A stretch of DNA of 64,000 bases from Carnobacterium jeotgali MS3 (GTDB taxonomy: Bacteria > Bacillota > Bacilli > Lactobacillales > Carnobacteriaceae), in contig NZ_JQNF01000010.1 of assembly GCF_000745125.1 (NCBI RefSeq), positions 1 to 64,000 on the forward strand, read 5' to 3'. A model generated the notes under the pieces. The model made no database searches. It saw only the letters and a program-made list of their open reading frames with translations, and was not told the DNA's origin. The translations under genes were made by a program, and so were the position numbers. This document shows positions 50,142 through 54,373 of the stretch, in pieces (the stretch's first letter is position 1; every line of letters begins with the position of its first letter).

Positions 50142-50244
50142 TTTAATCCTCCTCTTTACCGCTCTATTATCCCACAAGTTTTTTCGCTGAGAAAGCTAGT
50201 TTTGTCATTTTTATGTAAAGAATTTTCATTGATTTTTCTATTTT

Positions 50245-50408
50245 GGCTCTTCGTCAAATAGTGTGGCTGCTTACAAACATGATAGAATCGGGCATGAGTG
50301 CCCACAGTGCTACCCTTTCATTTTTCTACAGGGCTACAAGCAATCCTATTCCTCCAGAATGTTAAGCATGAACTAAATTCATCTATCCACACTTAAAAGT
50401 GTAGAGTC
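50245..50408 (+). mobile_element. MITE-like repeat, copy C
   Basis: 164 bases starting GGCTCTTCGTCAAATAGTGTGG and ending with AAAAGTGTAGAGTC (last hexamer degenerate). Flanks TCTATTTT (50237-50244) and TATATTTT (50409-50416) agree at 7 of 8 bases, a likely decayed target duplication. Shares the CTACAAGCAATCCTATTCC block with copy A. Confidence 0.8.
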
Positions 50409-50420
50409 TATATTTTTCGT

Positions 50421-50627
50421 AAAAAAAAAGCACTGATAAAATCAGTGCTTTTCCGACAATATTCATTTTCATAAATAGGTCCCATGAATTCCACAAAACA
50501 GAGGGGTCCAAACACCTGCATCTTGCAGTTGTACAGAAGTACGGTTGTGCCTTGTCTAAAGTTCCAATCACTTGTCGCCGCAGCGAAATGACCGAAGTCA
50601 CCTGATTGGAGGTCAACTCATCGCATG
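50421..50627 (-). ncRNA. Candidate structured small RNA of unknown family
   Basis: The stretch is clearly richer in G+C than its surroundings. A promoter (-35 TTGTAT at 50656-50661, 17 bases, extended -10 TGGTAAAGT with hexamer 50633-50638) points to a start near 50627. The end is a textbook terminator, AGCACTGAT-AAA-ATCAGTGCT with nine U's. Between are paired segments: CCCATG/CATGGG closing the body, CCAATCA/TGATTGG enclosing a UUCG-loop hairpin and CGC/GCG, then GTAC/GTAC and CTGCA/TGCAG hairpins. Length is about 207 bases. I could not assign it; 6S-like RNA or a lactic-acid-bacteria-specific RNA are options. A 96-codon open frame on the same strand is not protein-like. Confidence 0.6.
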
Positions 50628-50632
50628 GGTAT

Positions 50633-50661
50633 ACTTTACCATGGTATTTCATTAAATACAA
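50633..50661 (-). promoter_or_regulatory. Promoter of the candidate small RNA
   Basis: TTGTAT-17-TAAAGT with an upstream TGG on the minus strand. The gap 50662-50830 up to the next gene otherwise shows only AT-rich sequence and the upstream region of the plus-strand gene at 50831. Confidence 0.55.
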
Positions 50662-54289: not shown

Positions 54290-54373
54290 TGCGGCCGAGA
54301 AGAGTCGAACTTCCACCAGGATAATCCTGACCAGCCCCTCAAGCTGGCGCGTCTACCATTCCGCCACGACCGC
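54290..54373 (-). tRNA. tRNA-Leu (GAG anticodon)
   Basis: On the minus strand, acceptor arms GCGGTCG / CGGCCGC pair along seven positions with discriminator A. The anticodon stem CCAGC / GCTGG encloses TTGAGGG, giving anticodon GAG. A long variable arm and the GTTCGACTC T-loop typical of class II tRNA-Leu follow. CCA is not encoded. Confidence 0.95.

Follow-up and report, generated by a model that had tools for sequence, protein, structure and literature searches.

Within the window, by which we mean the whole 64,000-nucleotide stretch of Carnobacterium jeotgali MS3 DNA that was analyzed, one small gene raises the question of which RNA it makes and on what that RNA acts. A sequence-only reading had described a structured RNA that it left unassigned. 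We searched Rfam with Infernal and found that the RNA has a name: family RF02840 (Ref68, Lacto-3 RNA) matched positions 50625-50486 over the complete model (1-124 of 124), with a score of 63.4 bits that clears the cut-off of 44, and this supports a real conserved RNA. The family itself is already known, and Rfam files it twice, once in an entry without a stated function and once as MarS, a reported virulence regulator. As far as our literature search shows, three points appear to be new in this analysis: the unity of Ref68 and MarS, a closing helix termed P2, and a predicted pairing with 23S rRNA. In the accessible literature (no subscription papers), we found nothing on the function of Ref68/Lacto-3 and no bacterial sRNA that pairs with 23S helix 89 or 90. 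The available part of an enterococcal Grad-seq text does not name Ref68 (PMC10117718).

The RNA gene and its family

The gene has a promoter and a terminator of its own on the minus strand, as the sequence-only reading had claimed (Table 1). A simple consensus scan of the window listed neither of them. We compared the upstream regions of 98 homologous loci. A TANNNT box was found 5-9 nt upstream of the RNA in 96 loci, versus 10% of control positions, and a TTG -35 box in 76, versus 1% of control positions. The claim of a structured RNA was also borne out, as the minus strand folds better than its shuffles (z -3.2, reached by 0 of 200 shuffles). We rejected a protein-coding reading: a 96-aa ORF overlaps the RNA, and it is without a start codon in 7/7 relatives read, is not conserved, and is interrupted or frameshifted in several relatives. 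Wherever the Ref68 RNA was found, it was present in one copy per genome.

Table 1. Features of the Ref68 RNA gene and of its transcript in the window
Feature	Position	Strand	Details
Whole Ref68/Lacto-3 transcript	50421..50626	minus	~206 nt; predicted start at 50626; RF02840 and R1 matches
Promoter	50633..50661	minus	-35 box TTGTAT (50661-50656); 17-nt spacer; extended -10 TGG-TAAAGT, with TAAAGT at 50638-50633
5' tail	50612..50626	minus	AUGCGAUGAGUUGAC; unpaired in the comparative fold; residue 7 at 50620
Domain 1	50564..50609	minus	P1 with hairpins P1a (UUCG loop) and P1b (UGCG loop)
Domain 2	50455..50556	minus	enclosed by long-range helix P2: GACAA (50556-50552) with UUGUC (50459-50455)
Hairpin P3	50511..50551	minus	comparative fold, covariation
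Hairpin P4	50478..50509	minus	comparative fold, covariation
P4 loop UGUGGA	50490..50495	minus	complementary to 23S 2473-2478 (UCCACA); covarying residue R at 50491
Hairpin P5	50460..50477	minus	comparative fold, covariation
Intrinsic terminator	50421..50454	minus	14-pair stem followed by a T run
MITE-like dispersed repeat	50241..50412		~172 bp, outside the RNA, directly behind the terminator

Other known RNAs were set aside. Only Ref68 and one tRNA gene (54290-54373, minus strand) scored above the Rfam cut-offs in the window, in agreement with the earlier judgment that the RNA is not a tmRNA, RNase P, SRP RNA, or T-box; box C/D and H/ACA guide families also gave nothing above cut-off there. 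A 6S-type RNA, which that reading had considered, was dropped: the window holds no cut-off-level match to RF00013, and the genome has its 6S RNA gene on another contig (G000:C5:312828-313015, minus strand, 74.1 bits). The repeat reported behind the terminator is dispersed, with 64 BLAST matches in its own genome (pieces and the repeat itself counted). Two pieces of one MITE-like copy (G000:C5:312491-312742) lie directly downstream of the 6S RNA gene. Because copies are thus found behind both the Ref68 RNA and the 6S genes, the repeat may prefer sites behind terminators.

We wondered how widely the RNA occurs. RF02840 matched 29/39 relatives and 147/295 genomes drawn from the order; a search of the identical draw with RF01732 (asd/MarS) gave 66 matches, and the two models combined covered 181/295 genomes. 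The other 114 matched neither model under strict filters, which drop weak matches, so the RNA is not known as a requirement of every ribosome in the order. In all 32 genomes matched by both models, the two matches coincided on the same strand, with 5' ends offset by exactly 1 nt. The Rfam copy that we used has no clan for RF02840 or RF01732, and given these coinciding matches they should share one. Seven streptococcal loci had weak RF02840 matches, and at each of them RF01732 matched at the identical place (7/7). A control genome of Lactococcus lactis, a laboratory species, was likewise matched by both models, with RF02840 scoring below its cut-off and RF01732 above its own.

To avoid depending on the Rfam models, we built a full-length model, R1, from families f2 and f9 only, without streptococci and without any member of the window's family (f1). 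R1 matched the window at 50626-50450 with 81.4 bits and recovered 7/7 MarS loci; two of these matches were weak (E 0.07-0.08), one of them partial. The 5' tail and the P4 loop are kept across seven families. Gene neighbors are partly common to families f1, f4, and f6, which is consistent with a single ancestral gene. Judged from these comparisons, Ref68 and streptococcal asd/MarS are one family. The window RNA itself falls outside RF01732 by score, with no match in its genome at E 0.001, so it is no member by covariance model; it is nonetheless homologous to asd/MarS, as judged through the intermediates. The suggestion of a clade-specific RNA holds within the searched scope: R1 matched 2/151 genomes of the class under strict filters, both within the order. 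Since R1 with those filters also failed on streptococci in which the RNA is known to exist, the RNA cannot be called absent outside the order.

Fold of the RNA

The comparative fold reads, from the 5' end, as a tail, domain 1 (P1, P1a, P1b), domain 2 (P2 closing P3, P4, and P5), and the terminator. Nine helices were supported when 16 relatives (families f2 and f9) were aligned by sequence only: 86.7% of cells pair, and 36/43 pairs show changes on both sides. None of 500 shuffles reached any of these measures, and versions of the structure slid along the alignment dropped to 32-44% paired cells. This covariation again argues for a real conserved RNA. The three-way 5' domain, P3, and P4, all with covariation, are features of Ref68 that the RNA displays, and the window sequence fits R1. 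In an alignment of 87 matches fitted to the model, of which 86 were distinct and a few partial or due to chance, 92.3% of cells paired. The inner stem of P4 was the weakest helix, with 74-75% of cells paired. One member of the window's family (L028, genome G009) carries an insertion of about 160 nt, a very rough figure, between P1 and P3.

P2 was proposed unprompted by RNAalifold on the sequence-only alignment, and it covaries. Its 3' strand lies outside the Rfam Ref68 match, which stops just past the P4 loop. The branched fold proposed earlier, with a closing stem and two domains, was borne out. Folded alone, the window RNA forms the three-way domain with its UUCG and UGCG hairpins; the closing stem of the second domain is absent from the unconstrained lone fold, appears there only when the 5' tail is kept free, and comes from comparison. 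The minimum-energy lone fold (-63.3 kcal/mol) is without P2, versus -59.8 kcal/mol for the comparative fold with a free tail.

The tail is largely paired in the lone-sequence ensemble of the window RNA. Across 126 RNAs folded singly, the unpaired probability was at least 0.5 for the tail in 40 and for the loop in 98. Because lone folding often ties up the tail, its freedom is a comparative inference. In the lone fold of the window RNA, tail positions 50620-50615 pair with 50490-50484, on the 3' side of the P4 loop (minus strand). In such a model the two elements complementary to 23S rRNA close on each other, and this may be a closed state that opens on the target.

Complementarity to 23S rRNA at the tail and the P4 loop

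Conservation along the RNA is highest in the 5' tail. The tail consensus, AUGCGAUGAGUYGA, is complementary to 23S positions 2506-2519 in E. coli numbering, which we anchored on the conserved A2503 region. This stretch is the 5' strand of helix 90, beside the peptidyl transferase center. In the window's genome, the tail AUGCGAUGAGUUGAC and its own 23S sequence GUCGGCUCAUCGCAU (2505-2519) form 15 pairs, 2 of them G-U, with a predicted energy of -24.4 kcal/mol. The tail complement CTCATCGCA occurs at 17 sites in that genome, versus 5 for a reversed control pattern: 9 at one 23S place, 3 in the 16S-23S spacer, 1 in the gene itself, and 4 elsewhere. The spacer sites are copies of a 9-nt tail complement, CTCATCGCAAGATGAG, in three operons (L108, L115, L117), about 32 nt before 23S. 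Full 14-nt pairing to 23S or to a 16S piece was reached by 9/20000 shuffled tails. One further full 14-nt rRNA match was present in the transcript, from position 107 to 23S ~180, with 11 Watson-Crick pairs; it lies inside a paired strand of P3.

We queried 125 genomes for 23S rRNA and obtained the tail site from 88 and the loop site from 76; for the remainder the search pattern had no match or the loop site was not queried. The 23S patterns failed on two single-contig genomes (G018, G286), through either masking or a variant rRNA. All 14 tail positions pair with the genome's own 23S in 47/59 genomes. The exceptions inside the duplex are a G opposite G2509 (5) and a mismatch at residue 2 (1); the others are a mismatch at residue 1 (4) or 14 (1) and a 1-nt insertion (1). 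In the genomes seen, the 23S tail-site stretch varies only at 2513, which is A or G. Tail residue 7 and position 2513 combine as U-A in 52, U-G in 17, C-G in 18, and C-A in 0 of 87 genomes. C7 occurs with G2513 in three families (f2, f9g14, and f4g58, the last among the genomes queried later). On the 23S tree this pair alone is not significant, with 2-3 of 5 independent pairs changing together and none opposed, and many other 23S columns are also wobble-compatible with residue 7. At the tail, change in the RNA is thus compatible with 23S, not significant alone.

The loop of P4 offers a stricter comparison. Its consensus is UGUGRA, and in the window UGUGGA is complementary to UCCACA of the genome's own 23S, at the helix 89 tip. 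A rule derived from only this genome states that a UGUGAA loop should face UUCACA in 23S. In the 75 genomes with both loop and 23S, from 40 genera, R and 2474 are a Watson-Crick pair without exception (75/75): A-U in 28 genomes (16 genera) and G-C in 47 (24 genera). A later batch of 34 genomes yielded 23S for 21, and 0 went against the rule. Complementarity to rRNA is thus kept by compensatory change at the loop site. AGUGGA loops, with one pair fewer, were found in f2g15 and in three f2g39 genomes. The L028 RNA has a UGUGAA loop, unlike the rest of its family, which predicts U2474 in the 23S of G009.

Is this agreement peculiar to position 2474? In an alignment of 2919 23S columns (706 variable, 59 genomes), column 2474 alone agreed fully with R by Watson-Crick pairing; the next reached 0.81. 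In 40 genomes we also scanned the variable sRNA columns against the variable 23S columns, 58218 pairs in all. R-2474 was the sole perfect Watson-Crick pair, with the next at 0.889. When wobble was allowed and ties were ranked by Watson-Crick share, the pair of residue 7 and 2513 came second. Inspected by eye, the P3 loop was rejected as a third 23S contact, because its best column in the scan (23S 930, 0.889) is not perfect. On a 23S tree built without the tested columns, 2474 and the loop each changed six times, and the two changed together in 6/6 independent pairs, for which a sign test gives p 0.03, the lowest value that six pairs allow. A swap control with wobble allowed was weaker: the tail made 14/14 pairs in 47/59 own cases versus 72% of inter-genus swaps, and the loop all 6 pairs in 55/58 own cases versus 71%. 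The argument therefore rests on the strict column tests. The lone-sequence folds leave our confidence in the pairing unaffected, since the covariation is independent of them.

Proposed function and comparison with known systems

The order-wide family, its fold, its complementarity to 23S, and its rRNA-matched change (strict at the loop, compatible at the tail) were computed. On this covariation, pairing with 23S rRNA is very probably the selected function of the Ref68/MarS RNA. Its occurrence in the cell, its timing, and its effect we infer as follows. The best explanation, which we hold with moderate confidence, is a trans-acting RNA that would pair with 23S at two sites, likeliest on the immature 50S subunit. 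Its 5' end would form 14-15 pairs with the 2506-2519 region, and its P4 loop would pair with the tip of helix 89. The two predicted contacts are antiparallel and colinear and would flank 27 nt of 23S between the helix 89 tip and the helix 90 strand, so a single RNA can hold both. Within the finished 50S subunit, the strand of helix 90 lies base-paired and buried, which makes nascent or immature 23S the likeliest point of access. There the RNA would pair before the partner strand is made or folded, and it would hold the helix 89 and 90 strands until domain V folds, acting as a chaperone or checkpoint late in 50S assembly. If the pairing is granted, such a role in assembly is somewhat favored.

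Other uses of the same elements have to be weighed against this one. As in a conventional trans-acting sRNA, the P4 loop and tail might target mRNAs by base pairing close to their ribosome binding sites. The available text on MarS in S. pyogenes speaks for such targets: MarS binding to the mga 5' UTR shows as a gel shift and is lost in vitro when residues 88-89 are changed from CC to GG, and deletion of marS, which leaves the strain viable, lowers mga and its regulon (PMC5613026). We nevertheless regard mRNA targets as an unlikely main use, because mga is reported from S. pyogenes whereas seven families retain the tail and loop, and because mRNA targets leave the loop's change in step with 2474 unexplained. 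As residues 88-89 adjoin the UGUGAA loop, a streptococcal role on mRNA may coexist with the 23S pairing or be secondary to it. The same adjacency, counted on the streptococcal locus L065 (the residues follow directly after the loop), would suit an RNA that is soaked up by unassembled or fragmented 23S and so reports the state of assembly to its mRNA targets; a tail of 14-15 pairs exceeds what a sponge needs, and we think this use quite improbable. A CsrA-type sponge acting through GGA in the P3 loop was discarded, because the window's genus has AGA there; enterococci, according to the part of the Grad-seq text available, are also without CsrA (PMC10117718).

Instead of assisting assembly, the 23S pairing could serve to inhibit, store, or discard subunits, as in hibernation or in the quality control of damaged 50S. 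Pairing would obstruct function at both sites, which lie at the peptidyl transferase center and helix 89, and oxidative stress tolerance is reported to rise in a marS deletion (PMC5613026, available part). The accessible part of a study of S. agalactiae points the other way: the homologue there, Srn046, does not rise but falls, strongly in late stationary phase and also at acid pH (PMC4448216). This drop is easier to reconcile with growth and ribosome production than with hibernation, and we give inhibition or storage a low probability, equal to that of mRNA targets. Coincidence, in which protein binding or some other constraint conserves the tail and loop, seems to us hardly credible. Shuffled tails do reach a full 14-nt match at times, the tail was chosen for scrutiny through its conservation, and the wobble-allowed swap control is weak. 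Against this, the loop and 2474 changed together in every independent pair, and R-2474 was the unique top of the open scan, in the predicted register.

If the pairing with the ribosome's catalytic center is real, this would be, to our knowledge, the first RNA encoded in trans in a bacterium for which covariation shows an action on rRNA, and it would raise the question whether bacteria fold or check the peptidyl transferase center via small RNAs. MarS phenotypes would then have to be reread, as an effect on the ribosome could lie upstream of them. The predicted pairing site touches the helix 89 region, which is bound by orthosomycin antibiotics.

How does the RNA compare with known systems? By score over the whole model it is a member of Ref68/Lacto-3, and beyond the end of the Rfam match at 50486 it still has the remainder of P4, then P5 and the 3' strand of P2. 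The Rfam entry line of Ref68 shows no function, whereas the window RNA has a predicted one. With asd/MarS it has in common the 5' tail, the P4 loop, and the place of the gene in the double-match genomes. In contrast, asd/MarS has a simple hairpin where the window RNA has its three-way domain 1, and an mRNA target, mga, has been reported for it in S. pyogenes. 6S RNA (RF00013) is likewise small and structured and of similar length, but its long hairpin with a central bubble is not the fold found here.

The closest parallel in mode of action comes from outside the bacteria. Eukaryotic and archaeal snoRNAs, among them U3, U8, and the box C/D and H/ACA RNAs, pair with rRNA. Like them, the window RNA is a separate small RNA predicted to pair with rRNA; the likeness concerns mode of action alone and not membership, for the window RNA is bacterial and has another fold, and we know of no guide-RNP protein for it. 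On balance, we lean slightly toward the view that much of the Lactobacillales has a trans-encoded RNA that would pair with helices 89 and 90 in the peptidyl transferase region of 23S during 50S assembly, a bacterial counterpart of the snoRNA chaperones, with MarS as its streptococcal form.
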